Part shown: one piece after another, positions 3,488-30,525 of the stretch | Numbering within the stretch: the stretch's first letter is position 1 | How the letters are laid out: each line of letters starts with the position of its first letter | DNA from: Candidatus Eisenbacteria bacterium | Lineage (GTDB): Bacteria > Eisenbacteria > RBG-16-71-46 > SZUA-252 | NCBI GenBank assembly: GCA_005893275.1 | Contig: VBOW01000001.1 | Location: 1 to 35,212 of the forward strand | Direction of reading: 5' to 3' | Length of the DNA: 35,212 nt | Made by a program: the position numbers and the translations under genes | The notes under the pieces: model-generated | Databases searched by the model: none | Told to the model about the DNA's origin: nothing | Seen by the model: only the letters and a program-made list of their open reading frames with translations

Positions 3488-3502
3488 GATGGAAAGCAAT
3501 CG

Positions 3503-6681: not shown

Positions 6682-6706
6682 CACCCCCTTTGGTGAATGC
6701 TAGTTT
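6678..6706 (+). promoter_or_regulatory. sigma70-like promoter before the export gene
   Basis: A perfect TTGACA at 6678-6683 overlaps the 2-epimerase stop codon. Seventeen bases later comes TAGTTT (6701-6706), preceded by TG to give an extended -10 (TGCTAGTTT). The region is AT-rich compared with its surroundings. The predicted start would leave a leader of only about ten bases before the ATG at 6724, with no visible Shine-Dalgarno sequence. Confidence 0.5.
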
Positions 6707-6723
6707 GAATATTTGACAAAAAC

Positions 6724-7728: not shown

Positions 7729-7744
7729 CCTATCGAGCGTCATC

Positions 7745-10173: not shown

Positions 10174-10186
10174 CCTGAGGAAGCTC

Positions 10187-11515: not shown

Positions 11516-11522
11516 GGCGTCC

Positions 11523-12473: not shown

Positions 12474-13527
12474 GCCCGCCTCCGAAGCTCCGGAGCCCGT
12501 GCGCGTAAAGCCCGCCTCGGACGTACCTGCGAGCTGCTGGGATGACTACGTCCGTCGCAACCCGCAGGGAACCCTGTGCCACCTCCGAGCCTGGCTCGAC
12601 ACAGTCGGAGCCGCGTACCCGTATGAGTCTCACTCTCTCGTCGCCGAGCGAGGCGGCGTCCTATGCGGAGCGCTCCCCCTGTACCGGGCTCCGGTATTCC
12701 CGTCCGGCGCGGCGCTCATCTCCTCACCCGCCGCGATCTATGGCGGCATCATCGCGGACGATCCCGCCGCCGCGCGCGCCCTCTTGACCTCGGCCGCCGA
12801 GCTCGCGGATCGATTTCGGGTCCGATACCTCGAGCTGCGAAACAGGACGGCGACGGGCAATCTTCAAGTCAAGAACCTCTACGTGACCTTTCGAAAGCCG
12901 ATCGCTCGCGATCCGGAGCGCAACATGAGAGCCATTCCCACCCGGCCTCGCACCGCGATTCGCCGGGGCATTCGTCTCGGACTCGAGGCCGAGCTGGGAG
13001 GAGAGGAGCTGTTGCGGGAATTCTACCGGGTCTACTCCATCAACATGCGGGACCTGGGGAGCCCGCCCTATCCTCCGTCTTTCTTCCAGGGCTTGCTCCG
13101 CGCGTTCGGCAACGATTGCCGAATCCTGATTGTCCGGCACAAGAGTCGCGCCGTGGGGGGGGCGGCGGCGTTTTTCTTCCGGAACGAAGTATTACCCTAC
13201 TGGGGGGCTTCCATCCGCTCGGCCGCGCGAGAGCTTTGCGTCAACGATTTCATGTACTGGACCCTGCTGAGCCGCGCTGCAGAGCGGGGGTGCGAGCTGT
13301 TCGACTTTGGCCGCAGCAAGGTGGGGACGGGAGCCTACCATTTCAAGCGTCACTGGGGCTTCGAGCCGACCCCGCTCCCGTACCAGTATCATTTGGTAAC
13401 GCAGAAAAACTTGCCTGATTTGAGCCCGCTGAATCCTGGATTCTCGCTGCCGATCCTTCTCTGGAAGCGGATGCCCATTTCCATCACCCGCTGGCTGGGC
13501 CCCAAGCTCCTGCGCTTTTTCCCGTGA
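12463..13527 (+). CDS. FemAB-family protein, XrtA/PEP-CTERM locus type
   Basis: A 354-residue protein with the double-GNAT fold of FemAB peptidyl/acyl transferases, most like the subfamily found in PEP-CTERM EPS loci (TIGR03019 by recollection). Supporting segments are YVRRNPQGTLCHLRAWLDTV near residues 28-50, ALPLYRAPVFPSGAALIS, YGGIIADDP, the YLELRNRT strand, FYRVYSINMRDLGSPPYPPS in the second half, and CELFDFGRSKVGTGAYHFKR, which closes the fold. No signal peptide or membrane helix is seen. In known FemAB enzymes the acyl donor is an aminoacyl-tRNA; in the EPS-locus group the donor is not established. The start ATG overlaps the epimerase stop. It differs clearly from the three acyltransferase-like genes that follow. 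Confidence 0.85.
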   Translation: MQAEPASEAPEPVRVKPASDVPASCWDDYVRRNPQGTLCHLRAWLDTVGAAYPYESHSLVAERGGVLCGALPLYRAPVFPSGAALISSPAAIYGGIIADDPAAARALLTSAAELADRFRVRYLELRNRTATGNLQVKNLYVTFRKPIARDPERNMRAIPTRPRTAIRRGIRLGLEAELGGEELLREFYRVYSINMRDLGSPPYPPSFFQGLLRAFGNDCRILIVRHKSRAVGGAAAFFFRNEVLPYWGASIRSAARELCVNDFMYWTLLSRAAERGCELFDFGRSKVGTGAYHFKRHWGFEPTPLPYQYHLVTQKNLPDLSPLNPGFSLPILLWKRMPISITRWLGPKLLRFFP

Positions 13528-14744
13528 AGATTCTCTGTCTGTGCCATCGGATTCCATATCCCCCGGACAAGGGCGACAAGATTCGGTCCTTCCATCAAGT
13601 GCGCGCGCTTTCAAAGAATCACCGCGTTCACCTCGCGTTCTTGATCGATGATCCCGCCGATCGCACCCACCTGGATGCCGTCGAGCGATTCAGCGCCACG
13701 GTGGACTGGGCCTACCGTGGCCGGCAGGCCTCGATGGCCCGAGCGGCCTTTGCGTTGCCTTCACGGACCCCTTTCTCGGTCGCGGCATTCCACTCGCCCA
13801 CGCTCCATCGTAAGGTGCGCGATCGCATCCGAGCGGAGCGCCCCGATGCGGCTCTCGTCTTCTCCACGGCAATGGCGCCCTACGTTCGCGGGGAGCGGGG
13901 CATGGCGAAAGTCCTCGATCTGGTCGATGCGGACTCCGCGAAATGGCGGTCCTACGCCGACTCTCACACCCCGCCCTTATCGTGGATGTACCGCGAAGAG
14001 GCGAAGCGCCTTTCGCGGTACGAGGTCGCGGCGGTGGAAGACTTCGACGAGGCCATCGTCGTTTCGGAGGCGGAAGCCGAGCTTCTGCGCGCTGCCGGCT
14101 CGCGACGGGAGATCACGGTGATCCCCAACGGCGTCGATGTGGAGTACTTCCAGCCCGAGGCAAACTCCCCCGAAACGGCCGCGGAGCCCGCGGTGGTTTT
14201 TTGCGGGGCGATGGATTACCTCCCCAACGTCGACGGCGCCCGCACCTTTGCCGCGGAAGTCTTTCCACTCATTCGAAGCAAGGAAGGGACCTGCACCTTC
14301 TACATCGTCGGCCGAAATCCGACGGCGGCCGTCCGCAAGCTCGCCGAGCTACCGGGCATCGTGGTGACCGGAAGCGTGCCGGATACCCGGCCCTACCTTC
14401 GCCGCTCGCGGGTGGCGGTCGCCCCCCTGCGGATCGCGCGCGGCATCCAGAACAAGGTCCTGGAAGCGATGGCCATGGGTCTTCCCATCGTTGGAACACG
14501 GGTCGCCTTCCAGGGAATCGGCGCGACCTCGGAGGACGGTGCTCGGATCTCGGACTCGCCCCGCGAGATGGCGGAAGCCGTGCTGGAGCTCCTGAAATCC
14601 CCCGAGGCTCGTCGCCGTTCCGGCGCTCGCGCGAGACAATTCGTGATGGAGCGTCACCGCTGGGAAGGCCACCACGGCATGCTAGAGGCGTTGCTCCAGC
14701 GGGCGTGCGAGCGGCGCATCGCCGCCGGAGAGGTCACGCCATGA
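13524..14744 (+). CDS. Glycosyltransferase, PEP-CTERM locus type (TIGR03087-like)
   Basis: A GT-B fold retaining glycosyltransferase of 406 residues that should add one sugar to the lipid-linked repeat on the cytoplasmic face. The N-terminus VKILCLCHRIPYPPDKGDKIRS with HQVRALSKNHRVHLAFLIDDP closely fits the stp1 sugar-transferase family of exosortase A loci. The C-terminal GT4 part has VIPNGVDVEYFQP, VVFCGAMDYLPNVDG, APLRIARGIQNKVLEAMAMG with the E in the EX7E-type motif, and a closing RHRWEGHHGMLEAL. The GTG start overlaps the FemAB stop (GTGA) and the stop overlaps the next ATG (ATGA), so it is embedded in the operon. The donor sugar is not readable from the sequence. Confidence 0.9.
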   Translation: MKILCLCHRIPYPPDKGDKIRSFHQVRALSKNHRVHLAFLIDDPADRTHLDAVERFSATVDWAYRGRQASMARAAFALPSRTPFSVAAFHSPTLHRKVRDRIRAERPDAALVFSTAMAPYVRGERGMAKVLDLVDADSAKWRSYADSHTPPLSWMYREEAKRLSRYEVAAVEDFDEAIVVSEAEAELLRAAGSRREITVIPNGVDVEYFQPEANSPETAAEPAVVFCGAMDYLPNVDGARTFAAEVFPLIRSKEGTCTFYIVGRNPTAAVRKLAELPGIVVTGSVPDTRPYLRRSRVAVAPLRIARGIQNKVLEAMAMGLPIVGTRVAFQGIGATSEDGARISDSPREMAEAVLELLKSPEARRRSGARARQFVMERHRWEGHHGMLEALLQRACERRIAAGEVTP

Positions 14745-15856
14745 CGGAAGGCGCGTACGCTTTCGAGGAGATTCAGACCTTTCAGGAATTCCTCGCCCTC
14801 GAAGACGAGTGGAACGACCTTCTGGACGGAAGCCTCGCGGATCTGCCCTTTCTCCGACACGAATGGTTTCGCATCTGGTGGTCGCAGTTCGGCGTCCAGC
14901 ACAGGCTCGCGATCATTCTCGGAAGACGGGGGAGGAAGGTCTGCTTCGCGGCCCCCTTGATGGAGCGGAGCCGACGGATGATGGGACTGCCGCTCACCTG
15001 CCTGCAATCGTTGACGAATGATCATTCCTGCCGGTTCGACCTCTTGGTGCGGGAGGGAGAGGAATCGGCCCTGGAGCGGTTCTGCGGATACCTCGCCCGA
15101 AGGCCGCGACCGTGGGACCTGCTCCTCCTCCAAGATGTGGCGGAGGACAGCCCGGTGCTTCCCGGACTGATCCGCGCCGCCCGCAATGCCGGGTACCGCG
15201 CGGAAGCCGATCATGCGTACACCTGTCCGTATCTCCCGCTGGGCGGATCGTGGGCGGATTACTGGAGCGGGCTCAAACCAAAGTTCCGCTCGAACATTCG
15301 GAATCGCTCCACGAGAGTCGTTCTCAGGGGCCCCCTCGATTTCCGCGTCGCTTCCGATCCCGAGCAGGTTGCGGCCGCGTTGGCCGTCGGGATCGAGCTG
15401 GAACAGAGGAGCTGGAAAGGCAACGCAGGAAGCGCGATCGCATCCGATCCGTCCGTCGCGGCCTTTTACACCCAGTGGATGCAGGTCGCCGCCGACCGGG
15501 GATGGGCCCGTCTCTCCCTGCTGACCGTTGGCTCCGAGCCCGCCGCCTTCGACTGCGGGCTGCGTTACCGGGACCGCTTCTACTCGGTCAAGATCGGCTA
15601 CGACCCCGAGTTCGCACCGTACTCCGTCGGCCAGCTGCTGAAGCGAGAGCTGCTCCAGAGGCTCTTCGCGGAGGGCGTGAGAGAGTACGACTTCTTGGGC
15701 GAAATCAATGATTCGAAACGAGACTGGCTCCCGCGGACACGGGAGCACGAGTGGATCTTCGTGTACGGACGGGGAATCCTCCCGCGCTTGCACTACGCAT
15801 ACAAATTCCAGCTTCGTCCAAGAGTGAAGGCGCTGTTGAAACGGGCGGGGAAGTGA
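14741..15856 (+). CDS. FemAB/GNAT-like (BioF2/CelD-type) acyltransferase 1
   Basis: A 371-residue acyltransferase-like protein with a double-GNAT fold of the Acetyltransf_6/CelD type seen in polysaccharide loci. Family landmarks are EFLALEDEWNDLLDGS, FLRHEWFRIWWSQFG, LAIILGRRGRKVCFAAPLM in the N-terminal half and KPKFRSNIRNRSTRV, LEQRSWKGNAG, RLSLLTVGSEPAAFDCGLRY and FYSVKIGYDPEFAPYSVGQL in the C-terminal half. The YSVGQLLKRELL segment corresponds to the SPG-type turn of this family. Probable role: N- or O-acylation of an EPS sugar. It is a diverged paralogue of the genes at 17198 and 18414, sharing the EW-x2-LL and WW-x-QFG patterns. ATG overlaps the previous stop; GTG of the next gene overlaps its stop. 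Confidence 0.85.
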   Translation: MTEGAYAFEEIQTFQEFLALEDEWNDLLDGSLADLPFLRHEWFRIWWSQFGVQHRLAIILGRRGRKVCFAAPLMERSRRMMGLPLTCLQSLTNDHSCRFDLLVREGEESALERFCGYLARRPRPWDLLLLQDVAEDSPVLPGLIRAARNAGYRAEADHAYTCPYLPLGGSWADYWSGLKPKFRSNIRNRSTRVVLRGPLDFRVASDPEQVAAALAVGIELEQRSWKGNAGSAIASDPSVAAFYTQWMQVAADRGWARLSLLTVGSEPAAFDCGLRYRDRFYSVKIGYDPEFAPYSVGQLLKRELLQRLFAEGVREYDFLGEINDSKRDWLPRTREHEWIFVYGRGILPRLHYAYKFQLRPRVKALLKRAGK

Positions 15857-16992
15857 AGCCAAGGATCCCGTTCATCCAGCCGCTTACTCCCGGGGATTTC
15901 CTGGGCGCCAGACGAGAAACGTTGGCATCCATCGCGCCGCCAGGCACGCGACACCAACTCTACTACCTGGCGCGAAACGCGATTTGGCACGGAGTCCGGG
16001 CGCTCGGGCTCAAGGAGGGGGATGAGGTGCTGGTGCCCGCGTATTGCCACGGGGTGGAAATCGACGTGCTCCTCGCGCTCGGGCTCAAGCTCCGCCGCTT
16101 CCGGATCGATGCCTCGGTGCGCCTCGACCCCTCGGAGATCGCCCGGCTCATCTCCCGCGACACGCGGGCGATCTACGTCACTCATTACTGGGGCTTTCCT
16201 CAACCGATCGAAGCCATCCGAAACCTGGCGGATGGCCACGGTCTGCCTCTAATCGAGGACTGTGCTCTCTCCATGTTTTCCAAGTCCGGAGACAGACTCC
16301 TGGGCACATTTGGCAGCATGGCGATCTATTGCATCTACAAGACGCTGCCGGTTCCCCATGGAGGGGTCCTTGTGCTCAACCGGGACTCCCTGCCGATGCC
16401 GGCGGCACCGATACCGCCCGATCGCACATCGACCGCCGCCTATTGCGTCCACCGCGGTCTCGACTGGTTGGAGTTGAGATGGGGGGAGCCGGGGCACCGG
16501 GTTGCCGAGCTGGCCCGTTCCGTGGCCCGAGCCCTCAAGGGATGGAGCAAGCATGCGCCGGTGTTGGTCGACACGAACCGCCTGGATCCCCGTTTCCTCG
16601 ACCTCGGCATCTCACCCCTGGTGTCGTACCTGATCTCGCGAGCCGACGCCGAGGCAATCGCGCGTCGACGCAGAGAGAATTACGCCTGCCTGCTGAAGCA
16701 CCTCGATCCTCAAGTCCGCGTGGTCCACCCCGATCTGCCTGCCGGGGTCTGCCCCCACTCCTTTCCGATCCTCGCGCAGGACAAGGAATCGCTCCAAGCG
16801 AGGATGCAGGAGGAGGGGATCGAGACCATAAATTTTTGGTCTCGGACCCACCCCGCCATCTCCGAGGAGTCCTTTCCCGAGATCGGGTTTCTCAGGCGGC
16901 ACGTCCTCGAAATCCCGGTTCATCAGAGGCTTCACCCGGGGCACATGAAATACATGGCCCATACCTTGAACCGGGTGGCCCGGTGGACATGA
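15853..16992 (+). CDS. DegT/DnrJ/EryC1-family PLP aminotransferase
   Basis: A 379-residue PLP-dependent enzyme of the sugar aminotransferase family, expected to convert a nucleotide-linked ketosugar to an aminosugar with glutamate as amino donor. Motifs in order: LYYLARNAIWHGVRALGL, EGDEVLVPAYCHGVEIDVLL, YVTHYWGFPQPIEAI, LIEDCALS (the aspartate that holds the pyridine nitrogen), LLGTFGSMAIYCIYKTLPVPHGG with the probable Schiff-base lysine, and HQRLHPGHMKYMAHTLNRV at the end. The lysine context is KTLPVPHGG rather than the common K-x-G-E-GG, so activity on a usual substrate is not certain. Its GTG overlaps the acyltransferase stop, and its stop overlaps an ATG that now begins only a degenerate gene remnant. 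Confidence 0.85.
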   Translation: MKPRIPFIQPLTPGDFLGARRETLASIAPPGTRHQLYYLARNAIWHGVRALGLKEGDEVLVPAYCHGVEIDVLLALGLKLRRFRIDASVRLDPSEIARLISRDTRAIYVTHYWGFPQPIEAIRNLADGHGLPLIEDCALSMFSKSGDRLLGTFGSMAIYCIYKTLPVPHGGVLVLNRDSLPMPAAPIPPDRTSTAAYCVHRGLDWLELRWGEPGHRVAELARSVARALKGWSKHAPVLVDTNRLDPRFLDLGISPLVSYLISRADAEAIARRRRENYACLLKHLDPQVRVVHPDLPAGVCPHSFPILAQDKESLQARMQEEGIETINFWSRTHPAISEESFPEIGFLRRHVLEIPVHQRLHPGHMKYMAHTLNRVARWT

Positions 16993-17190
16993 ATCTTGTT
17001 GCGGAGGCCGTTCCTGCCCTCGCGCGCCGCGGCTCCATCGTGCCCGACGCGCGCCTCAAGAAGTCGCAGTATACTCTTGGGGGGGCGCTGATTTGGGCCG
17101 CTGGAGCGCCACGTTCCGATTGGAAGCGGAGATGCTGAACCGGAGCCTGCGAACGACCGCGAAAACGGCGCTGCGCCGAAAAGATCCCGA
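16989..17190 (+). pseudogene. Collapsed remnant of a FemAB/GNAT acyltransferase gene
   Basis: Three blocks match the intact gene that follows, in order but with the sequence between them missing. 17001-17033 is identical over 33 bases to 18002-18034. 17046-17094 resembles 18149-18197 (protein DARLKKSQY versus DPRLKQTQY). 17096-17185 closely resembles 18326-18415 (RWSATFRLEAEMLNRSLRT versus RWGAAFRLEAERLDRSLRT). The gap between blocks one and two equals a 102-base in-frame deletion; that between two and three equals 127 bases and shifts the frame. The ATG at 16989 overlaps the aminotransferase stop (ATGA), as functional genes here do, so it may be the original start. What remains in that frame encodes only about 49 residues and cannot form an acyltransferase. 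Confidence 0.85.
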
Positions 17191-17197
17191 GGACGAA

Positions 17198-18433
17198 GTG
17201 ATCGAACCGGCATCGAGGAGCCTCAAGAAGGAGATCGGGGGCCGAGATGGGTTTGCGCGGGCGACACGCCCTCCTACGAGTCTTGTTGCGAGCCTATGCC
17301 GAAGCACCGAGGAATTTTCCCTTCTGGCGGACGAATGGGACGGGCTCCTGGAGCGGAGTCGATCCCATTCCGTGTTCTTGAGCTGGGGATGGCTCTATGC
17401 CTGGTGGCGCCAGTTCGGAGGCGGGCGAGAGCTCGCTCTGATCCTCGTCCGGGATCCCGCGGGGCAGCTTGTGGGGATCGCGCCGTTCTGCCTCGAGCGC
17501 CGGGGGAGGATTCCTTCGGTCCGGGTGGTTTCCTTTCTGGGAACGGAGCGGGTCAGCTCGGAATACTTGGACGTGATCGCGGACCCGGCACGCGAGGAAG
17601 ATGTTCTGGCGGCGGTGTGGCATGCCCTCATGGGGGAGGGGAAGAATTGGGACTGGCTCCGGCTCACGGACCTGCTCGAGTCGTCCCTGGTTCTGCGGCA
17701 TCTCAGGCCCCTGTGCGAGCAGGCGGGCTACCGAACGGTCCTGTCCAACTCGGAGGTCTGCCCCTATTTGACCCTTCCACCCACGGCGGAGGCGCTCCCG
17801 AAGTGCTTGGGACCGAATATGAGGGGAAACGTCAAACGCAAGATTCAAAAGCTTCGTGAGATCGGAGCGGACCTCGTTCCCCTCGAAACCGTGGAGGAAA
17901 TGAAGTCCGCGTTGCCGACCCTCTTCGATCTCCACGCGAAGCGCTGGGCCGCCCGGCGGCTCCGCGGGAACTTCTGGGATCCCCGCGTTCGCGCTTTTCA
18001 CGCGGAGGCCGTTCCTGCCCTCGCGCGCCGCGGCAGGATTCGTCTCTTCGAGCTCCGCGTCGATCGCCGCCCGATCGCGTTCCAATACGCGCTTCGCTTT
18101 CGGGACACCTTTTTCCTGTATCAGGTCGGCTTCGATCCGCTTACTCCGGACCCGCGTCTCAAACAAACTCAATACAGTCCGGGTGTGGCGTTGATCGGGC
18201 TCTGCCTGGAAGACGCCGTACGAGAAGGCCTCCGGGAGGCTGATTTCCTGCGCGGAGGGGAGGGCTACAAGCTCGAATGGACCAAATCCTCGAGAACGAC
18301 TTCGTGCCTGACGGCCGTCACCCCCGGCCGCTGGGGCGCCGCGTTCCGATTGGAGGCGGAGAGGCTGGACCGGAGTCTACGAACGATCGTGAAAAAGGTG
18401 CTGCGCCGCCAGGGTGCCGATGTCTCGCTATGA
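17198..18433 (+). CDS. FemAB/GNAT-like (BioF2/CelD-type) acyltransferase 2
   Basis: A paralogue of the gene at 14741, sharing EEFSLLADEWDGLLERS, FLSWGWLYAWWRQFGGG, LALILVRDPAGQLVGIAPF, then PNMRGNVKRKIQKLRE, FDLHAKRWAARRLRG, RIRLFELRVDRRPIAFQYAL and FFLYQVGFDPLTPDPRLKQ. A double-GNAT acyltransferase of EPS decoration is the likely role. The start is uncertain. The frame is open back to TTG 17093, with ATG at 17132, but that part is the tail of the decayed upstream copy. GTG 17198, with GAGGA at 17189-17193, is the first start after the remnant and gives 411 residues. The first 20 or so of these still have no family counterpart. The end overlaps the next gene by 20 bases. Confidence 0.85.
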   Translation: MIEPASRSLKKEIGGRDGFARATRPPTSLVASLCRSTEEFSLLADEWDGLLERSRSHSVFLSWGWLYAWWRQFGGGRELALILVRDPAGQLVGIAPFCLERRGRIPSVRVVSFLGTERVSSEYLDVIADPAREEDVLAAVWHALMGEGKNWDWLRLTDLLESSLVLRHLRPLCEQAGYRTVLSNSEVCPYLTLPPTAEALPKCLGPNMRGNVKRKIQKLREIGADLVPLETVEEMKSALPTLFDLHAKRWAARRLRGNFWDPRVRAFHAEAVPALARRGRIRLFELRVDRRPIAFQYALRFRDTFFLYQVGFDPLTPDPRLKQTQYSPGVALIGLCLEDAVREGLREADFLRGGEGYKLEWTKSSRTTSCLTAVTPGRWGAAFRLEAERLDRSLRTIVKKVLRRQGADVSL

Positions 18434-19604
18434 ATCGGCGTTGACTTCCGAGCCTCACGACCCCGTTTCGGTCGAGGTGGATTGGTACGACCGACTCGAG
18501 CACATCGAGGCGCTCGAACCCGCTTGGCGAAGCCTCGAAAAGTGCGTGGGATCCCGGATGATTTTCGCGGGTCCGGATTTCGTCATTCCCTGGTACCGCC
18601 ATTTCTGCGGCTCCGGATGGACTCCCCTCCTGGGAACCGCGTGCGCGGGCGGCCGGCTGGTCGGGCTGGCACCCCTCGTGATGTGGAACGGATCGCTGGG
18701 GAAGGTCCCGCTCCGCCGCGTTGATTTCGCCGGGCACCAGTGGGATGCGGGGGAGTTCCTTGCGGAGGAAAACGCTCCGCGACCGGCGGGCGCCCTGCTG
18801 GAGGCCCTCGCGCAGCGGAGGAAGTTCGACGTTCTTTGTTTCGGAGGATTCGAGCCCCAGTCCAGGATACTGGGAGAGCTTCGCGACGCGGCGGCTCGCG
18901 TCGGATTTCCGGCGATCACGAAGAGCTATGCCTATGCGACTGTCGACCTGCGTGGCGGATTCGAAGCGTATTGCCGTTCCATGACCAACAACTTCCGGCG
19001 GAATCTGAGACGGCACAGGTCCAAGGTGGAGTCCGCGGGCGTGCCGGGCCTGGATCGCTTTCTCCCGCCTCAGCCGATCGGAGCGTTGCCCGAATACCTG
19101 GAGCGCGTGTTCCGGATCCAGGAACGCAGCTGGAAGGCCCGAATGGGACCGCCTTCTCCACGGCACCGCGGTTTTTTCGACGAGTCGGTCCGTCGCTTTG
19201 CGGAGCGGGGGATGATCGACATCGGCATTCTGACAATCGATGGAGAAGACGCCGCGTTTCTCGTGGGGGTTGTCGAGCGAGGTGTTTACTATGATTTCAA
19301 CATCTCCTTCGACTCGAGATTCGAGAACCTCTCTCCCGGCACGTATCTGTTACATGAAATCTTGAGAACGCTCCCGGACGCCGGTGTGCATACCGTGGTC
19401 TCCCACGGAGACCACGAGTACAAGCGTCGCTGGGCCACCGGTCTTGTTCCGCAGACGCGGGTATTTTTCTTCGGGTCGGGCCCGCGGGCCGTCCTTGCGC
19501 GGGCGACCAGATTCATGCTCCCCGCCGCATGGAGGAGCCTCCGCCGACGATCCGCTCGAGCGGCGTCCAAAGATCCGGGTAGCCAGAGATGGACGCGATC
19601 GTAG
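18414..19604 (+). CDS. FemAB/GNAT-like (BioF2/CelD-type) acyltransferase 3
   Basis: A 396-residue protein of the same acyltransferase group but further diverged. Landmarks: HIEALEPAWRSLEK, MIFAGPDFVIPWYRHFCGSG, LLGTACAGGRLVGLAPLVM, RVDFAGHQWDAGEFLAEE, FEAYCRSMTNNFRRNLRRHR (the basic helix after the strand), IQERSWKARMG, IDIGILTIDGEDAAFLVGV and YDFNISFDSRFENLSPGTYL with the SPGTYLLHE turn that is characteristic of Acetyltransf_6 proteins. The start is GTG at 18414 or, two codons later, ATG at 18420; both lie inside the end of acyltransferase 2. The last 30 residues are basic and may be disordered. Its tail overlaps the start of the GT-deacetylase fusion by 16 bases. Confidence 0.85.
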   Translation: MPMSRYESALTSEPHDPVSVEVDWYDRLEHIEALEPAWRSLEKCVGSRMIFAGPDFVIPWYRHFCGSGWTPLLGTACAGGRLVGLAPLVMWNGSLGKVPLRRVDFAGHQWDAGEFLAEENAPRPAGALLEALAQRRKFDVLCFGGFEPQSRILGELRDAAARVGFPAITKSYAYATVDLRGGFEAYCRSMTNNFRRNLRRHRSKVESAGVPGLDRFLPPQPIGALPEYLERVFRIQERSWKARMGPPSPRHRGFFDESVRRFAERGMIDIGILTIDGEDAAFLVGVVERGVYYDFNISFDSRFENLSPGTYLLHEILRTLPDAGVHTVVSHGDHEYKRRWATGLVPQTRVFFFGSGPRAVLARATRFMLPAAWRSLRRRSARAASKDPGSQRWTRS

Positions 19605-21856
19605 CCACGGGGTCCGAACGGGGACCGCGGCGGGACGCCGCCTCGCGTCGGCCGCTTCGAGTGATGCACGTAGTGAATGCCCTGGGGGTCGCAGGCCTGG
19701 AATACGGGGTGATCAAGATCTGCAACGGGCTGGACCCCACCCTGTTTGAGCCGAGCGTCTGCAGCATCCGCTTCGAGGGAGACGGGGCGCGGGAGATTCT
19801 CCATAGCCGTATCCCGAGCTTCCAGCTCGACAGGGGGCCGGGCGAGGATTTTCGGGTGGTGCCTCGCCTGGCCGAGCTTCTTCAACGCCAGCGGATCGAT
19901 ATCCTCCATTCTCACAATTGGCTGACGTGCTTCTACGCCCTCGCCGCCGCCTACCTCGCCAGGACTCCCGTCGTGATCCATGGCGAGCACGGCCGCGACG
20001 AGCTGGAGGTTCCAGCCGAGCGTCTGGGCCGGAGACGCCTCCTGGCGCAGCGGGCGCGTCACCTTGTGACCGTGTCGGAGAATCTCCGCATGGAGATGAT
20101 CAATCGGTGGCTGCTTCCAGGGGAACGGATCACCTCCATCCCCAACGGAGTGGACTTGGCCGCCTTCGGGTCCGACTACGATTGCGATTCCCTCCGGCGT
20201 GAATTCAATCTCGAGCCGTCCCACCGCGTCATCCTGAACATCGGCCGGATTGAACCCATCAAGGATCACGCGACGCTTCTCGAGGCCTTCGCGAGGGTGC
20301 ACCAGCGCCGCCCGGAATGCCGCCTGCTCCTCGTCGGGAAAGGAGAGCGCGCGGGTCTGGAGTCCCAGACAGCCGCCCTGGGAATCCGGAGCACCGTTCT
20401 GTTCGCCGGCCTCCGGCGGGAGATTCCCCCGATTCTTCGAATGAGCGCGGTCTACGTTAACTCATCGCGCTTCGAGGGAATGTCGAACACCATTCTCGAG
20501 GCGATGGCCTCCCGGCTTCCGGTGGTGGCGACGGCCGTGGGCGGCAACCCGGAGCTCGTTCGCGACGGTCGAACGGGCTATCTGGTTCCGCCGGGAGACC
20601 CGGCCTCGATGGCGGACCGTCTGGAGCGACTCCTGGGGGACCCGAACCTGAGCGCGGAGATGGGTCGCGAGGCCCGGCGAATCGTGGAGACCCACCACTC
20701 CCTCGATGGAATGATTCGTGCCTACGCGGAGCTCTACACCAGCGTGTGGCAACGACGGTCCCTCGAGCGACACGCTCCCATCGCGGAGCGGCTGCGGCTG
20801 GCGGCGGCGGGCGTCCTCTGTCGTGCGCGGCGGCGACCGCCCAGGAGTCCGCGGACACCGCCGCGGCTGATCATTCTTGCCTACCATCGGGTCCTCCCCC
20901 TGTCGGAGGCGCTCCGGTACCCATTCCCGGGAATGGTCCTTGCTAAGGATCTCTTCGAAGCTCAGATGTGGCACCTCTCGCGGCGATACAACGTCCTGCC
21001 GTTAGGACGCGCGATCCGTTCCCTCCAAACGGGTGATCTTCCCGAGGGGGCGGTCGCGCTTACCTTTGACGACGGCTACGCCGACAACTACGAACACGCA
21101 TGGCCCATTCTGGAGCGGTGCGGGCTACCCGCGACGTTCTTCCTCGTCACCCGCGCCGTGGATCGAGAGCTCGTTCTGTGGTGGGATGAAGTCGCCGCGG
21201 TCGTGGAGCGTCTCGCCACGGGGGGAGCTGCGGCCAAGGCGGTCGATCTCGTCCGGCTCCCGAAGCCCGTGGGCGAAATTCTTTCGGCCCTCGATCATGG
21301 AGCGTCCGCGCAGACCGTGTGCCTCCGGCTGGTTCGAGCGCTCAACGGGACTCCGCGCGAGGGACGGACGAGCGTGCTGGAACGGCTCGGAATCCCGCAG
21401 CCGCGCGTGGATGGGGATCGTCCCAACATCATGATGACCTGGGCGCAGGTCCAGGAAATGCGCGCCTCCGGCGCGGAGTTCGGCGCCCACACGGAAGCAC
21501 ACGAATTCCTCGACGAGACGGACCCGCTGACGACGCGACGCGAGATCGGCGGCAGCGTCCGGACGATCACCGAGCGTCTGGGGGCCCGAGTGACGCTCTT
21601 TGCCTACCCCAGCGGACGCTTCTCGCCTTCGGTTCTTCCCGCGCTCCGCGAAGCCGGAATCGAGGCCGCGGTGACCACCGAGGGGGGGTGGAATGGCCCG
21701 GGACAGGACCTCTACCGGCTGAAGAGGATGGACGCGGGATTCGCATCCACCCGGACGCGATTCTCGCGCAGCCTATTCGATGCCGAGGTGCAGGGAGTCT
21801 TCAATCCAATCCGAAAACTCGCAGAGGGACTGATCTCACAGAGGATCGACGCCTGA
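19589..21856 (+). CDS. Fusion of GT4 glycosyltransferase and CE4 polysaccharide deacetylase
   Basis: A 755-residue two-domain protein. Residues about 22-385 form a GT-B glycosyltransferase like the stp2 (TIGR03088) family of PEP-CTERM loci: VMHVVNALGVAGLEYGVIKI, DILHSHNWLTCFYA, VVIHGEHGRDELE, VSENLRMEM, SIPNGVDLAAF, VNSSRFEGMSNTILEAMAS. A basic proline-rich linker (about 405-425) leads to a NodB-like CE4 domain: LIILAYHRVLP, LTFDDGYADNYEHAWPIL with the catalytic Asp pair at 494-495, the metal-binding H634-x3-H638 in FGAHTEAHEF, and LFAYPSGRFSP. The expected role is sugar addition followed by N-deacetylation of a HexNAc residue by one polypeptide. No signal peptide is visible, so both domains appear cytoplasmic, unlike most exported CE4 enzymes. 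No stop or start signal separates the domains. Confidence 0.92.
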   Translation: MDAIVATGSERGPRRDAASRRPLRVMHVVNALGVAGLEYGVIKICNGLDPTLFEPSVCSIRFEGDGAREILHSRIPSFQLDRGPGEDFRVVPRLAELLQRQRIDILHSHNWLTCFYALAAAYLARTPVVIHGEHGRDELEVPAERLGRRRLLAQRARHLVTVSENLRMEMINRWLLPGERITSIPNGVDLAAFGSDYDCDSLRREFNLEPSHRVILNIGRIEPIKDHATLLEAFARVHQRRPECRLLLVGKGERAGLESQTAALGIRSTVLFAGLRREIPPILRMSAVYVNSSRFEGMSNTILEAMASRLPVVATAVGGNPELVRDGRTGYLVPPGDPASMADRLERLLGDPNLSAEMGREARRIVETHHSLDGMIRAYAELYTSVWQRRSLERHAPIAERLRLAAAGVLCRARRRPPRSPRTPPRLIILAYHRVLPLSEALRYPFPGMVLAKDLFEAQMWHLSRRYNVLPLGRAIRSLQTGDLPEGAVALTFDDGYADNYEHAWPILERCGLPATFFLVTRAVDRELVLWWDEVAAVVERLATGGAAAKAVDLVRLPKPVGEILSALDHGASAQTVCLRLVRALNGTPREGRTSVLERLGIPQPRVDGDRPNIMMTWAQVQEMRASGAEFGAHTEAHEFLDETDPLTTRREIGGSVRTITERLGARVTLFAYPSGRFSPSVLPALREAGIEAAVTTEGGWNGPGQDLYRLKRMDAGFASTRTRFSRSLFDAEVQGVFNPIRKLAEGLISQRIDA
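21841..21845 (+). promoter_or_regulatory. Ribosome-binding site that supports a CTG start
   Basis: GAGGA (within AGAGGATCG) is followed by seven bases and then CTG at 21853-21855. The CTG overlaps the stop codon of the fusion gene as CTGA, in the same manner as the ATGA and GTGA overlaps elsewhere in this operon. No ATG, GTG or TTG lies in frame nearby. Confidence 0.6.
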
Positions 21857-24288
21857 TTCTGTGGCTCAAAGAACTTCCGGGTTGCGATCCCCGCATTGTT
21901 GGAGGCAAGGCGGCTCGCCTGGGTGATCTCCGGCGGGCCCAGCTCCTTGTCCCCGACGGCTTCTGCGTCACCGTGGAGGCCGCGCGCGCGGCGCTGGAGC
22001 GCGTGAAGCAGGCTTCGGGACGCTCGCTTCAGGCAACGACCCACGCGCGAGAGGTACAGGATGCGCTTCGGAAGGAGCCGCTCCCGGCGCAGCTCTTGGA
22101 GCGCCTGGAGGGAGCCTATTCACTCCTTCGCGCTCGAAACAGGCCCGATCCGGCCCTCGTGGTTCGCTCGTCCGCCGTTTTTGAAGACAGCGCCCACCAC
22201 AGTTTTTCGGGCGTCTACCATACGTCTCTGGGGGTCACCGACTTCTCCGGACTGGTCGACGCGATTCGTGAGTGCTGGGCGTCGGCCTGGAGCCCCGAGG
22301 CGCTGGCGTACTGCGAGCGGATGGGCTATCCCGTCGGCGACGCGTCCATGGCGGTTCTGGTCCAGGTTCAGATGCGCGGGCGCGTCTCGGGGGTCATCTT
22401 CACCGCGAATCCGCTCACCGGAAATCCCTTCCAGATCTGCATCAACGCGGTGCCCGGTGCCGGCGAGGCCTTGGTGTCGGGCGACGCTTCCGCGAGCGAG
22501 TGGATTCTCGGCCGCGATGCACGCGTCGAACGAGCATCGAGCGGGTCGGCGGACCTTCTCTCTGAGAAGGAGCTCCGGGCGCTCGTCGACATCGCGAACC
22601 GAGTCGAGGACTTGATGCGCGGGCCGCAGGATGTGGAGTGGACGCTGGGGCAGGATGGGATCTTCGTCCTCCAGGCGCGACCGATCACCGCACTCCCTCC
22701 GTACTTCCCGGCGCCCGAAGAGCATTCGAGCCGGGTCTGGAAGCTGGCCTTCGTCGGCCTCTTTTCCCCTTTCGGTCTCTCCTTGGAGTCCATCAAGAAC
22801 CCGATCTACGAGGACGCCATACAAAGGACTCTGGGGCGGGTCGTCCGGCACCACCAGCGGGTCGTGCATGGATACCTCTACGATCGGAAGGTGACTCCCC
22901 GTTGGAGCTGGCTTCTGCTCCCGTGGTCGCTCTACAAGCACATCCGGCTCCTGGCTCGCATTCCTTCTCTCGACCGGGAGTACTATCGACAGCTGGAGCC
23001 AAGCTACCGGACCGTCATAGCAAAGCAGGTGGAGGGCGCCGAGCGGGAACGACATCTCCCGGCCCTCTGCGCCGGTGTGGACGCCCTGGTGGAAGCGTAC
23101 CTCGAGTTCCAGCGGCGTTCGGTCGCGCCCGGGAGCCTGTCGAATCTTTTCCCGCGGCTCGTGCGCCGTCTCGTCCTGGCGAGCGGCCTGAGCGAGGAGC
23201 CCACGGAGGCGCTGGATATTTTCGGAGGGCTCGCGAATGCCACTCTGGCGCGAGATCGGACCCTGGCGGGGTTTTGCCAGGAGCTGACCGAGTCAGGTCT
23301 TGCACGGGAGCTTGCGGGCTCGAGGGATTGGGACGAATTGAGACGCCGCTTCAGCGCCCGCGCGGACGGGCACCGCTTTCTGGAACGCTGGGACGCGTTC
23401 TATCGCGATTTCGATTACACCTGGGCGGAGGGAAATCCCAAAGATCCTGGATGGAGAGAGGATCCCTCCACGGTGTTGACGGTCCTGCGCAAGATGGTGG
23501 AGACGGGATCGAGCCGCGCCACAATCGAGCGCCTCGCCTTTCAGACGCGGCGAAGGCACGAATTGCTTGCGCTTTGGTCCCGGCGACTGGATCCGGTCCG
23601 CCGCGCGCTCCTACGCGCGCTCGTGACCTATGCCTGGCGCTATTTCCCCATTCGCGAGGACCACAACCACATGTTCTATCGCGGCGTGGCCGCGATTCGA
23701 CAAGTCCTCTTGGCGATCGGGAAGGAGCTTGTCGCAAGGGGCGTTCTTCTCCAACCGGAAGAAGTTTTTTTCCTTCGTTATGAAGAAGTCAGAGACCTCG
23801 CGGGGGTTTGGGATCCGTCCAATCTCACACGCGTCGTCAGGGACCGGCGCGAGGAATTCAAACGGAATCGAAGGCTCACGCCGCCCTACGAGCTGGGGGC
23901 AAAACCTGCGCCCCGAACCGCCTCCATCGCGGGAGAGGACGGGGCGCTGCGCGGAAACGGGGCGAGCGCGGGGGTCGCCCGTGGGCCCGCCCGCGTCGTC
24001 CTGGATCCCGTCCGCCTCCCGGAGCTTCGGCAGGGGGAGATCTTGGTCTGCCCCAAGGTGCGCCCGTACTACACCCCCTTCCTGGCCATGGCGGCTGGGC
24101 TGGTCACGGACGAGGGCTCCTTGCTCTCCCACGGCGCCAATCTCGCCCGGGAGTACGGAATTCCCGCGGTTCTCGGGATCCACGGGGCGACACGGCACAT
24201 CCGGACGGGCGAAGTCGTCGTCGTCGACGGCTCGGCGGGGACCGTTCGGATTCTCGAAGCCCCGGCCGTGGGGGGGCGCGGCGCGTGA
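21853..24288 (+). CDS. PEP-synthase/rifampin-phosphotransferase-like protein
   Basis: An 811-residue protein with the PEP synthase layout. The N-terminal ATP-grasp PEP/pyruvate-binding domain (1-280) shows IVGGKAARLGDLRRAQLLVPDGFCVT, VVRSSAVFEDSAHHSFSGVY, AVLVQVQMRGRVSGVIFTANP and GPQDVEWTLGQDGIFVLQARPI. A long helical middle part is poorly conserved. The C-terminal swivelling domain has GPARVVLDP, EILVCPKVRPYYTPFLAMA and LLSHGANLAREYGIPAVLG with the phosphoryl-accepting histidine near residue 760. There is no C-terminal PEP/pyruvate TIM barrel, so it resembles rifampin phosphotransferase more than PpsA; it may move a phosphate from ATP to an EPS intermediate. The family N-terminus aligns with the residues right after CTG 21853; an upstream GTG near 21688 would add about 55 residues lying inside the fusion gene. 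Confidence 0.82.
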   Translation: MILWLKELPGCDPRIVGGKAARLGDLRRAQLLVPDGFCVTVEAARAALERVKQASGRSLQATTHAREVQDALRKEPLPAQLLERLEGAYSLLRARNRPDPALVVRSSAVFEDSAHHSFSGVYHTSLGVTDFSGLVDAIRECWASAWSPEALAYCERMGYPVGDASMAVLVQVQMRGRVSGVIFTANPLTGNPFQICINAVPGAGEALVSGDASASEWILGRDARVERASSGSADLLSEKELRALVDIANRVEDLMRGPQDVEWTLGQDGIFVLQARPITALPPYFPAPEEHSSRVWKLAFVGLFSPFGLSLESIKNPIYEDAIQRTLGRVVRHHQRVVHGYLYDRKVTPRWSWLLLPWSLYKHIRLLARIPSLDREYYRQLEPSYRTVIAKQVEGAERERHLPALCAGVDALVEAYLEFQRRSVAPGSLSNLFPRLVRRLVLASGLSEEPTEALDIFGGLANATLARDRTLAGFCQELTESGLARELAGSRDWDELRRRFSARADGHRFLERWDAFYRDFDYTWAEGNPKDPGWREDPSTVLTVLRKMVETGSSRATIERLAFQTRRRHELLALWSRRLDPVRRALLRALVTYAWRYFPIREDHNHMFYRGVAAIRQVLLAIGKELVARGVLLQPEEVFFLRYEEVRDLAGVWDPSNLTRVVRDRREEFKRNRRLTPPYELGAKPAPRTASIAGEDGALRGNGASAGVARGPARVVLDPVRLPELRQGEILVCPKVRPYYTPFLAMAAGLVTDEGSLLSHGANLAREYGIPAVLGIHGATRHIRTGEVVVVDGSAGTVRILEAPAVGGRGA

Positions 24289-25799
24289 TGCGGCGGACTC
24301 TGACGGAGCGGGCGGGTGTGCTCGCGGGTGGGAACGCGCTGAACATCCTCGCGCTGTTCTTCATGCCGCTGATTTTGACGCGGATCCTGAGCAAGGAGCT
24401 CTTTGGGATTTACAACCAGGCCACGCTCATGGGGAATATTCTCTATCCGATCTTCACGGCCGGTATCGCGGCAAGCATCTACTATTTCCACGCCAGCCTG
24501 GAGCCCGCGCGGAGACCAACCCTGATCGCCCAGAGCATTGCCGGGTTCTTCTGCCTGGGCCTCGTGGCGGCGGCTCTGCTTTATTCCGGATCGGGTCCGA
24601 TCGCCGGGCTGTTCCACAACCCCGGGGCATCGCCCGTCCTGCGGGCCTACAGCCTCTATCTTTTTTTCTTCATCGCCGGAGATGTGCTCTTTCCGTACCT
24701 CGTGCTCTTCGACCACATTCGATGGGCCGTCCTGGCGGGGCTGTTGGAGGCGCTTCTCCGATATCCGGCGGTCCTGCTTGCGGTGCACTTCGGATTCGGG
24801 CTGCCAGGGATCTTCATCGGGCTCGCCGCTCTCATGGCCTTGAAGTACGCCCTGACGCTTGGCTTCCTAACGCGAAAGGTTCGTTGGCAGGACCTCCGCC
24901 CGCGGCCCGGGTTGATTTCCGCCCAGGTACGGTACGCGGCCCCTCTCGGCGTCTCCAACGCCATCGGCACGCTGGGCCAATACGCCAACCGGGCCGTGGC
25001 CGCGGGCGGACTCACCGCGACCCAATACGCGGTCTACACGGTAGGAAGCATCCAATTTCCGGTGTCCTCTATTTTCAACAAGGCGATCCGGCCGATCCTT
25101 CGCGAGGAATTCTCGCGCGCGGGGTCGGAGGGGCGTCATGCCGACATCGTCGCCGTGTGGAGGGAATCGGTTCGAAAGCAGTCGTTGATCGTGAACCCGC
25201 TGTTCGCGTTTCTGATGCTCTTTGCGGGTCCCGTGATCGAGGTGCTTTACACGTCCGCCTACCTGGAGAGCGTCCCGGTGTTCCGAGTTCTCCTCGTCCT
25301 GCTCCTCCAGACCGTCGTGAGCTTCAGCATCATACCCGAGTCCCTCGGAAGAACCGACATCACGCTGCGAGCCTCGGCCATCTCCCTGATCGTGAGCCTC
25401 GGGCTGAGCCTCGTCCTCATCCGGCCCCTCGGCCTCCTTGGACCGGCGATCGCCATCGTCGCCGCGACGTATCTGAACGGGTGGTACTCGATGGGTTGGG
25501 TTCGGCGCCTCACGGGCGTTTCCTATCGGCACCTATTCCCGTGGCAGGAGATGGGGCGCATTTTGGGGGTATCGATGGCGAGCGCGGCCGCGGCTTATCC
25601 GGCCCTCTGGGCGCCGCTTCCTCTGATGGCGCGTCTCGGAGGGGCGGGGGTCTTGTTCTCGGCGGTCTACCTCTTTGCGGCCCTGCGCTTGAAGCTTCTC
25701 ACCCATGAAGACCGCGCCTTTCTCCGGCAGGTTTTCGAGCGGCTTCGTGTTCCGCGCCCACTCCTGCGAATCCTCGATCACGCCACACAGGAGCGCTGA
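24288..25799 (+). CDS. Wzx-type oligosaccharide flippase (MVF/polysaccharide transporter)
   Basis: A 503-residue polytopic membrane protein that should flip the lipid-linked repeat unit across the inner membrane. LTERAGVLAGGNALNILALFFMPLILTRILSKELFGIYNQA is the typical beginning of this family (split here into the first helix and the G-x-Y/F-x2-A turn). About 12-14 hydrophobic segments follow, with short basic loops such as LTRKVRWQDLRPRPG and WRESVRKQS between them. The ATG overlaps the previous stop by one base (TGATG); a GTG at 24285 would add one residue. The gene sits between the phosphotransferase and the polymerase/ligase, the classic Wzx next to Wzy arrangement. Confidence 0.9.
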   Translation: MRRTLTERAGVLAGGNALNILALFFMPLILTRILSKELFGIYNQATLMGNILYPIFTAGIAASIYYFHASLEPARRPTLIAQSIAGFFCLGLVAAALLYSGSGPIAGLFHNPGASPVLRAYSLYLFFFIAGDVLFPYLVLFDHIRWAVLAGLLEALLRYPAVLLAVHFGFGLPGIFIGLAALMALKYALTLGFLTRKVRWQDLRPRPGLISAQVRYAAPLGVSNAIGTLGQYANRAVAAGGLTATQYAVYTVGSIQFPVSSIFNKAIRPILREEFSRAGSEGRHADIVAVWRESVRKQSLIVNPLFAFLMLFAGPVIEVLYTSAYLESVPVFRVLLVLLLQTVVSFSIIPESLGRTDITLRASAISLIVSLGLSLVLIRPLGLLGPAIAIVAATYLNGWYSMGWVRRLTGVSYRHLFPWQEMGRILGVSMASAAAAYPALWAPLPLMARLGGAGVLFSAVYLFAALRLKLLTHEDRAFLRQVFERLRVPRPLLRILDHATQER

Positions 25800-27277
25800 T
25801 GTCCCTGCGATTGCTCTTTCTGATGGCGCTTACACCGGTCGGCGTCATTCTCACGCTCATCACTCCGTTCGTCGGGGCGGTGATCCTCATTTTGATCTAT
25901 TTCATACGCCCCGAGGTATGGGGCATGCCCTCGGCCCTGAGTCCCAGCCTGGTCATCACGGGCGCCATGCTCCTGACCGTGATCCTAGGAAAGACAAGGT
26001 TCAGGCTTCCGACCGGCTCTCTATGGCCGATGCTTCTCCTCGGATGCATGGTGAACTCGAGCTTTTCGGCTCTCATCTCGCCGGCCGCGAGCTTTCAACA
26101 GACCTCCGATTTTGCGAAGCTGGCCGTGATGTGGCTCCTGATCGTGCTCGTGGCCGACTCGCCCCGGAGGCTCTACCTCCTTCTCTGGAGCACGGTCGGA
26201 GGAGTCCTGTGGCTCATCAAGTCCGCGATCTACTTTTACGTCACAACGGGCGCGCCGCGGGTGGAAAGGGTAGGCGGGCAGGGAAGCGGGGCCAACTACA
26301 TGTCGGCCATGCTGCTCTTGACGCTCCCGCACTTGCTCTTCGAGGCGTTTGAATCCCGATCGAAGTTCAAGTGGCTGGCACGCGCGCTGGTGCCCCTCTG
26401 GCTCTGGGTGTTCATGCTGACCGGTTCCCGCGGGGGTCTGGTTGGTTTCGTGGTGCTGGTCCTGCTCTACCTGCTTCAGAGCTCGAGGAAGGGGACCGCC
26501 ACGATTCTGACGGTCGTTCTCGCCGGATTTCTGCTCTTCGCAGGGTCGGAGGTGTACTGGAGCCGGATGCGTTCCATAACATCGTACGAGGAGGACGAGT
26601 CCGCCCGTAGCCGGCTGGAGGTATGGCGGGGCGCTCTGGATCTGGCTCGGAAGTACCCGCTCACCGGGATCGGGCTCCAGAATTTCGTTCTGGTGAGCCC
26701 CATGTACACGACCTCCAGAGCCAAAACGACCGGCGAGGGGCTCGAGGCGCACAACACGTACCTTCAAGTCCTGGCCGAGGGAGGCTTCCCGACGCTGATC
26801 GTATTCTTCTGCATGCTCCTCGGGGCGTTCCGGAAGCTGAACCGGGTCGGGCGGGACCCGCCGTCCTCCGGCGACCAAGCGGAACCGAGTCTATGGCAGA
26901 TCCGGTCCGCGGTCCTGACCGGGCTTGGCGCTTTTCTCGGACAGTCCTTCTTCGACAGCAATTTTCACAAAGACCCGCTCTGGTGGTTCCTGGCATTCGC
27001 CGAGGCGCTCGCATGGGTCGCCGCGCGTCAGCCGTCGGCGGAGGCAAGGGGGACGGCTCCCGCCGCGTTGGCCGTGCAAAGAGCCGGGACGTCTACCAGA
27101 AGCGGCCGATCGCCTGCTCGACCATCCGGCGTGCCGTGCGGGTCACCGGGGAGCGAAGCGGCGTTGCCTGGTCCGTCAGCCTCCAGTCCGGAGAAGCAAT
27201 GTCGTCGAATCCAACCGTTCGGAACTTGTCCGGGTGCCGGGCCAGAAACCGGCAGAGGTTCTCGAATCGGTGGATGA
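25799..27277 (+). CDS. O-antigen ligase/polymerase (Wzy-like, exosortase A type)
   Basis: A 492-residue inner-membrane protein. The N-terminus (LITPFVGAVILILIYFIRPEVWG) recalls the DUF5935 region of the ligases found in exosortase A loci (TIGR03097 type). A Wzy_C/O-antigen ligase core follows with WVFMLTGSRGGLVGFVVLVL, YPLTGIGLQNF in the large periplasmic loop, and LEAHNTYLQVLAEGGFPTLIVFF, which has the conserved histidine. It would polymerise the repeat or attach it to an acceptor. GGAG lies just upstream of the ATG, which overlaps the flippase stop. The last roughly 75 residues are low in hydrophobicity, rich in P, S, G and R, and lie antisense to the end of the converging deacetylase gene, so the true functional end may be near residue 415. 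Confidence 0.87.
   Translation: MSLRLLFLMALTPVGVILTLITPFVGAVILILIYFIRPEVWGMPSALSPSLVITGAMLLTVILGKTRFRLPTGSLWPMLLLGCMVNSSFSALISPAASFQQTSDFAKLAVMWLLIVLVADSPRRLYLLLWSTVGGVLWLIKSAIYFYVTTGAPRVERVGGQGSGANYMSAMLLLTLPHLLFEAFESRSKFKWLARALVPLWLWVFMLTGSRGGLVGFVVLVLLYLLQSSRKGTATILTVVLAGFLLFAGSEVYWSRMRSITSYEEDESARSRLEVWRGALDLARKYPLTGIGLQNFVLVSPMYTTSRAKTTGEGLEAHNTYLQVLAEGGFPTLIVFFCMLLGAFRKLNRVGRDPPSSGDQAEPSLWQIRSAVLTGLGAFLGQSFFDSNFHKDPLWWFLAFAEALAWVAARQPSAEARGTAPAALAVQRAGTSTRSGRSPARPSGVPCGSPGSEAALPGPSASSPEKQCRRIQPFGTCPGAGPETGRGSRIGG

Positions 27278-28060: not shown

Positions 28061-28067
<7 letters not shown>
27093..28067 (-). CDS. Polysaccharide deacetylase-like protein (NodB fold, DTE variant)
   Basis: A 324-residue protein of the polysaccharide deacetylase superfamily. 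LNVLITVDTEVWPY carries the catalytic acid in a TVDTE rather than TFDDG context; LREHGLRAVFFVESL is the usual second strand; MQLHIHTEWLARM supplies the metal-binding histidines (91 and 93); AFRAGNFGANHDTLRAL and FVIVFHSFELL complete the fold. It should remove acetyl groups from a glycan or its lipid-linked precursor. There is no signal peptide. The GTG start at 28067 overlaps the upstream glycosyltransferase stop by seven bases, with GGAGA nine bases before it; GTG at 28058 is an alternative. It is the last gene of the minus-strand operon and overlaps the convergent ligase gene by about 185 bases. Confidence 0.85.
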
Positions 28068-29301
<1,234 letters not shown>

Positions 29302-29305
<4 letters not shown>

Positions 29306-30525
29306 CGGCGGCGGCCGCCCCCCGCGGCATCGCGCCCGCGGCGCGCCTCGTTCCGACTCTGAAGCGCGGCATCGAACGTGCGGACCAACGCCTCCGAGAC
29401 CCGGTCCCACCCGCGCGCCGACGCGGTCTCCGCGATGCTCGCCCGGTCCCACACCCTGCCGAGCCCCAGGGAAATCGCGCGGATGAAATCTGGCGTCGTC
29501 CGCTCAGCCAGAATCCCGACCGACCCGGAATCGACGATCTCAGGAATCCCGCCCGCGCGGCTGGCTACGACCGGGGTCCCGCAGGAGATCGACTCGAGGA
29601 TCACGTTGGGGCAGCCCTCCTGGGCGCTCGCAAGGCAGAAGAGATCCGCCGCGCTGTACCAGAGGGGGAGCGTCGCCTGGTCCTGGGCCCCTCGGAGCAT
29701 CGCGACACCTTGAAGCTCGAGCCGCTGAATCAGCGCCTCGAGCTCACCACGAGCCGGACCTTCGCCCAGGATGACGAGAGAGATTCCTGGAAAAGAGCGC
29801 CGCAGCTCCTGCATGGCACGGATCAGGATGTCGAATCCCTTGTTCCTGGTCAGGTTGCCCGCCGACAGAAGCACGGGCCCCGACGGGACGCCTAGGCGCT
29901 CCCGAGCGGCCGTGCGGCACCAAGGGTGAAACTTCAGGGCGTCGACTCCGTTGGGAATGACATCCACGCGGTCCGCAGCGGCGCCGAGCTCGCACATCTG
30001 GCGCTTGAGCGCGGCGGACACGGCGATCAGGCGATCCGCCTGCGTGAGGCAGCGGCGGAGGATTCCGCGTATCGATCGAAGCCTGGGATAGGTGTGAATA
30101 TCGGTTCCACGCGCGGACAAGACCACCGGAAGACCCAGGTCTTTCCCGATGCGCAGCGCGGCGTATCCATCCGGGAATACGTAGTGTGCGTCGATCAAAT
30201 CGAACGGCGCGCGGCGGTGGAGCTCCGTGACGAGACGGCGTGTTCCCCGGTACATGAGCCAGCCGTAGGAGAACATGCCGACCTTGGGCGTCATGAAATA
30301 CCGCGGATGGTGCACTTCCAGCCCGGACAAGCGCTCGAGTCTTGGGACTTGCGTAAGCTCCCAGCGGTGCGTCCAGCGCAGGGGCGGGAAGTAGGGAACC
30401 GGCGCGACCACCTGGACGGTGTGGCCGGTGTGGCGCGCAAGCTGCGAGATTCGCTCCTGGATGAAGACGCCGTGTCGGGGGCGCACGGAGCTCGGGTACA
30501 GGGAAGTGAAGGTGAGAATTCTCAC
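29302..30525 (-). CDS. GT4 family glycosyltransferase (TuaC-like)
   Basis: A 407-residue GT-B glycosyltransferase. VRILTFTSLYPSSVRPRHGV is the N-terminal nucleotide-fold start, HTVQVVAPVPYFPPL and FDLIDAHYVFPDGYAALRIG follow, and the C-terminal half has VIPNGVDALKFHPW, LLSAGNLTRNKGFDILIRAM, ADLFCLASAQEGCPNVILES (the donor-binding EX7E region) and VGILAERTTPDFIRAI. Of the known groups it looks most like the TuaC/WcaL-type enzymes, but the donor and acceptor cannot be told. The GTG start overlaps the amidotransferase stop (GTGA, 30522-30525); the frame stays open for another 68 codons upstream but those lie inside the amidotransferase gene. The tail is very rich in R and G. Confidence 0.9.

Follow-up and report, generated by a model that had tools for sequence, protein, structure and literature searches.

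What could an enzyme resembling PEP synthase and rifampin phosphotransferase (RPH) contribute to polysaccharide assembly? The question is raised by a gene in an exopolysaccharide (EPS) operon of a Candidatus Eisenbacteria genome, which we examined within a window of 35,212 nucleotides (contig VBOW01000001.1, the whole stretch of DNA analyzed here). A sequence-only reading of this window had described the product, P0001, as an ATP-grasp and swiveling-histidine protein with a large unrecognized helical middle, and had suggested that it might phosphorylate a lipid-linked sugar, polyprenol, or EPS precursor before flipping. The RPH superfamily is described as large, with substrates that for the most part have yet to be explored (PMC4844700).

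Gene boundaries and the surrounding EPS locus

The open reading frame at 21853 to 24288 on the plus strand (811 codons plus stop) is a real gene, with PPDK_N and PEP-utilizers matched by Pfam in its translation and a fold match to RPH. Its first codon is CTG (21853 to 21855), not ATG, GTG, or TTG. A Shine-Dalgarno-like AGAGGA (21840 to 21845; 21840 to 21855 with the codon, plus strand) ends 7 nt 5′ of it, and in pairwise alignment the protein of the nearest relative, L038, begins three residues earlier than P0001; from this spacing and alignment, CTG at 21853 is the probable start. The CTGA at this junction shares bases with the TGA of the upstream gene, and the stop codon and the ATG of the flippase gene overlap as TGATG, so the gene overlaps its neighbors on both sides.

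Pfam identified these neighbors as the two named in the earlier reading, a fusion of a GT4 glycosyltransferase and a polysaccharide deacetylase directly upstream (19589 to 21856) and a Wzx-type flippase directly downstream, with a one-base overlap (24288 to 25799), both on the plus strand. A Wzy_C/TIGR03097-like polymerase-ligase, under its curated cut-off, follows at 25799 to 27277 (plus strand). The upstream EPS genes (5440 to 19604, plus strand) encode WecB, Wza-like export, Wzc-like chain length, tyrosine kinase, and NDP-sugar dehydrogenase proteins, as well as an epimerase, a FemAB protein (TIGR03019), a GT4, GNATs, and DegT. Two GT4 glycosyltransferases (one TIGR04063) and a TIGR03108-type amidotransferase lie on the minus strand (28061 to 32420). 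The plus-strand EPS block extends from ~5.4 to 27.3 kb and holds several families associated with XrtA/PEP-CTERM systems, not all of them above cut-offs. TIGR03019 (358 against 260) and TIGR04063 (533 against 442) mark the locus as XrtA/PEP-CTERM type; TIGR03108 was just under its cut-off (806 against 817), and TIGR03097, TIGR03007, TIGR03018, and TIGR03027 were under theirs. A search for exosortase (PF09721) in this genome, which is 99.65% complete, gave no match; 33 of the 46 searched genomes of the phylum have one.

Several other genes of the region are of separate interest. Four Acetyltransf_6 (GNAT/FemAB-like) proteins are encoded in the operon (12355 to 13527, 14741 to 15856, 17093 to 18433, and 18414 to 19604), one of them the TIGR03019 protein above cut-off, a redundancy that would fit several decorations with aminoacyl or acyl groups. 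A DUF92/TIGR00297 integral membrane protein is encoded near the beginning of the EPS region (4856 to 5593); its plant relatives are phytyl-phosphate kinases. Just 5′ of the EPS genes, a GGDEF diguanylate cyclase and an MshE-type c-di-GMP-binding protein (2408 to 4150) suggest control of the EPS genes by c-di-GMP. An 868-codon open reading frame that adjoins the region (32523 to 35129, minus strand) is partially matched by PcRGLX_2nd, a domain resembling polysaccharide lyases.

Domain architecture and family assignment

The two domains expected from the earlier reading are present: Pfam matched PPDK_N (E = 3e-57; two stretches, the best at residues 15 to 223) and PEP-utilizers (E = 6e-22; residues 726 to 796). 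No Pfam domain beyond these was found in P0001, and the PEP/pyruvate barrel (PEP-utilizers_C, PF02896), whose absence had also been claimed, is missing from both the Pfam matches and the predicted structure. PEP synthase and pyruvate phosphate dikinase (PPDK) share the ATP-grasp and swivel domains with P0001 but carry this PEP/pyruvate-binding barrel, which was matched in the genome's true PPDK. It could be argued that P0001 is nevertheless a PEP synthase or PPDK that supplies PEP, for example, for pyruvyl groups, and NCBIfam does list PEP synthase models among its matches. However, all of these are far under their curated cut-offs, the fold of the acceptor domain is that of RPH and not of PPDK, and another locus of the genome encodes the complete PPDK with its barrel, so PEP metabolism has no need of P0001. 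Architecture and the separate PPDK rule out this role, which is contradicted by the data and has a negligible probability.

P0001 comprises an ATP-grasp domain (residues 1 to 284; 21853 to 22704), a helical RPH-type acceptor-binding domain (residues 285 to 695; 22705 to 23937), both with approximate boundaries, and a phosphohistidine swivel domain (residues 696 to 805; 23938 to 24267), all on the plus strand. An AlphaFold model built from an alignment of 72 family members had a mean pLDDT of 88.6 and a pTM of 0.84; prediction from a two-sequence alignment alone gave a pLDDT of 34.8. With this model, Foldseek ranked RPH structures first over the whole length (~880 columns; E = 7e-40), and PEP synthase and PPDK followed with shorter stretches or whole-chain TM-scores of ~0.25. 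Whole-chain TM-scores against RPH were ~0.5 (rmsd, ~14), modest values that differing placement of mobile domains may explain. Because the alignment behind the model included true RPH proteins, the fold match depends in part on the sequence match. Listeria RPH structures are also the best solved relatives by sequence (E = 6e-60), and the proposed likeness to RPH is therefore borne out in both comparisons. The helical middle is by AlphaFold and Foldseek the RPH-type substrate-binding domain, and the description of it as unrecognized does not hold, as the fold is not new. Sequence homology to RPH in this domain is clear for the C-terminal half only, and a profile comparison of residues 293 to 531 with true RPH was not significant.

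RPH uses K22, R117, and T136 for the first half-reaction and R666-E667 for the second, with H825 as the phosphate carrier (PMC4844700). By alignment, the counterparts in P0001 are K19 (21907 to 21909), R105 (22165 to 22167), T124 (22222 to 22224), R601-E602 within REDHNH (residues 601 to 606; 23653 to 23670), and H760 (24130 to 24132), with a further ATP-grasp residue at E262 (22636 to 22638), all on the plus strand. K19, R105, E262, and H760 are common to 72 of 72 aligned family members, which puts the family match far beyond chance; R601 is Lys in L038. P0001 thus has the domain order of the RPH-architecture superfamily (ATP-grasp, helical acceptor, and C-terminal swivel His, with no barrel) along with its ATP-site Lys/Arg/Thr, acceptor-site Arg-Glu, and swivel His, and it appears from its sequence to be a complete single-chain dikinase of that architecture, with a predicted activity.

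The likeness does not extend to rifampin inactivation. P0001 scored 281.8 bits against the model for rifamycin-inactivating RPH (NF041857; cut-off, 999), and of the Gln pair and Lys that mark contact with rifampin phosphate, Gln336-Gln337 are deleted or replaced and Lys670 corresponds to N605. Since the catalytic residues are kept while these contacts are missing and the score is under the cut-off, P0001 is RPH-like in outline and outside the rifampin-inactivating family. The NF041857 score and the missing Gln pair rule out rifampin resistance as a family assignment.

Nearest relative, phylogenetic placement, and distribution

Homologous loci were taken from GTDB contigs, and the best 80 among the matches listed were compared. 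Among these matches, the highest score belonged to L038, from a Thermodesulfovibrionia MAG (Nitrospirota), which is 31% identical to P0001 over its full length (446 bits, versus 321 for the next). Its locus is an XrtA-type EPS locus with deacetylases, glycosyltransferases, and a Wzy/TIGR03097-like protein; a TIGR03108-like amidotransferase gene is directly upstream, and a GT2 gene is directly downstream, followed by a FemAB-like GNAT gene. The immediate neighbors and the phylum differ from those of P0001, which lies between the GT-deacetylase fusion and the flippase, but the full-length match, the private motifs, and the type of EPS locus are shared. Central-metabolism genes, the context that would have spoken against an EPS role, are therefore not the setting of this nearest relative among the matches listed.

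Two motifs, WAxxNPKDPGxxEDPS and EDxNH, are private to P0001 and L038 and unlike the rest of the family. The first corresponds in P0001 to WAEGNPKDPGWREDPS (residues 524 to 539; 23422 to 23469, plus strand), where the rest of the family has a motif like EID...PRWxEDP. A similar EDHN motif occurs in L053, a Gemmatimonadota protein whose locus has no EPS context. In a careful tree, P0001 and L038 formed a clade with support of 100/98, away from the clade with true RPH, and they were joined at an SH-aLRT of 94 in a larger, quick tree; both branches are long. Of the 79 other RPH-family loci among the best 80 listed, 77 had no EPS-type neighbor and 2 had one, in a count seeded with the EPS proteins of the P0001 locus and L038, which divergent genes could escape and for which some contigs were short. 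Taken together, the sequence comparisons support P0001 and L038 as a clade outside RPH proper that occurs in EPS loci. As only two members are known, 31% identical and on long branches, the shared EPS context rests on two loci.

The gene is rare in both lineages. A dikinase of the L038 kind was found in 1 of 230 Thermodesulfovibrionia genomes (its own), with a distant partial match in one other; exosortase was above cut-off in 97 of 229 genomes of this class. The P0001 gene was in no other genome searched from its Eisenbacteria genus, the other eight genomes of the host family had weak partial matches only, and in the phylum only distant paralogues were found. One of these, an RPH-like dikinase from another genome (L028), is encoded in a run of genes (L028:5903-16387) that also specifies HMG-CoA reductase, a DUF3419 protein, a GNAT, and an AMP-ligase and that may form a pathway for isoprenoids or lipids. 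No full-length match was found in 398 Pseudomonadota or 284 Myxococcota genomes; the RPH-like matches in these and in 64 Gemmatimonadota genomes were all partial and distant. No homologues were found in viral contigs. A gene this rare and accessory would fit better with decoration or tailoring than with core assembly.

This sporadic distribution would also fit an enzyme whose phosphate acceptor is a small molecule with no link to EPS, such as an antibiotic or a phenolic, and whose gene entered the operon by chance; rifampin and phenols are the substrates of most characterized relatives (PMC4844700, PMC12167813). The overlapping junctions with both neighbors, the second EPS locus in L038, and the absence of the rifampin-contact Gln residues argue against such a function, which we consider unlikely.

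Proposed function and comparison with known systems

The reading we favor, at about an even chance, is that P0001 is a dikinase that uses ATP to phosphorylate a hydroxyl group of an intermediate in the EPS pathway; our confidence in any single acceptor is lower. H760 would first be phosphorylated by the ATP-grasp domain with the beta-phosphate of ATP, and AMP and Pi would be released. Movement of the swivel domain would then bring the phosphate to the helical domain, where R601-E602 would assist its transfer to the hydroxyl of a nucleotide-sugar, of a lipid-linked repeat unit, or of the lipid that carries this unit. Transfer would probably precede flipping by the adjacent Wzx. Because the nearest relative, from another phylum, is in the same kind of operon, P0001 may phosphorylate a polysaccharide building block. 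The more specific version, in which a lipid-linked or nucleotide-activated EPS sugar receives the beta-phosphate before flipping and a phosphorylated exopolysaccharide results, is tentative and somewhat improbable as stated. The enzyme type and the EPS link are supported by the data; we infer the activity, the direction of phosphate transfer, and the acceptor, and some relatives with this architecture, PigC and RedH, are ligases, not kinases.

The main rival reading comes from those two enzymes. P0001 could be an ATP-dependent ligase in which the phosphohistidine phosphate activates an EPS precursor for condensation and no phosphate is kept in the product. NCBIfam places PigC and RedH among its best matches to P0001 (270 and 302 bits), and the FemAB/GNAT and amidotransferase genes of both EPS loci would make a locus suited to such an enzyme. 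However, these scores are well under the cut-offs of 1300 and 1350 bits, P0001 is apart from PigC in the careful tree, it lacks a prodiginine context, and loci of this type generally carry amidotransferase and FemAB genes. We consider a ligase rather unlikely, though less so than the small-molecule function.

More doubtful still is a role in phosphorylating an alcohol that serves as the lipid carrier for EPS assembly, such as polyprenol or a related isoprenoid. The distant L028 homologue adjoins an HMG-CoA reductase gene, a DUF92/TIGR00297 protein is encoded in the region, and a Trp-rich stretch of P0001 (residues 351 to 368) ranked 3rd of 72 for interface affinity. L028, however, did not group with P0001 in the larger, quick tree, and the DUF92 gene is ~16 kb from the P0001 gene. 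A search of the acceptor domain for a membrane-binding signature returned the hydrophobic stretch with a low moment, shared beyond the clade. The data do not distinguish among a phosphorylated sugar, a phosphorylated lipid carrier, and a ligase product.

The fold, domain order, and chemistry of P0001 are already known. In a search of open-access literature, we found no report that describes this clade or links it to polysaccharide loci and no dikinase in EPS or exosortase systems. If the favored reading of an EPS-pathway dikinase is true, the clade would add a new substrate class to the RPH superfamily and a new chemical step to EPS assembly, and it would warn against labeling such genes as PEP synthase or rifampin resistance. 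We know of no polysaccharide pathway with a phosphorylation step of this RPH type, which would differ from the known routes to phosphorylated EPS.

A precedent for a dikinase that places the beta-phosphate of ATP on a polysaccharide is plant glucan water dikinase. Its domain order is unlike that of P0001, and it has carbohydrate-binding modules, whereas Pfam finds only PPDK_N and PEP-utilizers in P0001. The phenol dikinases HpeHI, PpsAB, and CreHI share chemistry and domain types with P0001 (PMC12167813) but consist of two chains and act on phenolic substrates; P0001 is one chain of 811 residues. PigC and RedH, the prodigiosin ligases, have its domain order and catalytic motifs, but they catalyze condensation, occur in pigment gene clusters, and belong to a separate clade. 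Closest by sequence and by fold among solved structures is RPH of Listeria monocytogenes (PDB 5HV1/5FBS), with which P0001 shares the three-domain order, the fold, the ATP-side residues, the Arg-Glu pair, and the swivel His. It differs from RPH in sequence (~22% identity in the fold alignment), in having no Gln336-Gln337 and Lys670, in its separate clade, and in its place within an EPS operon.
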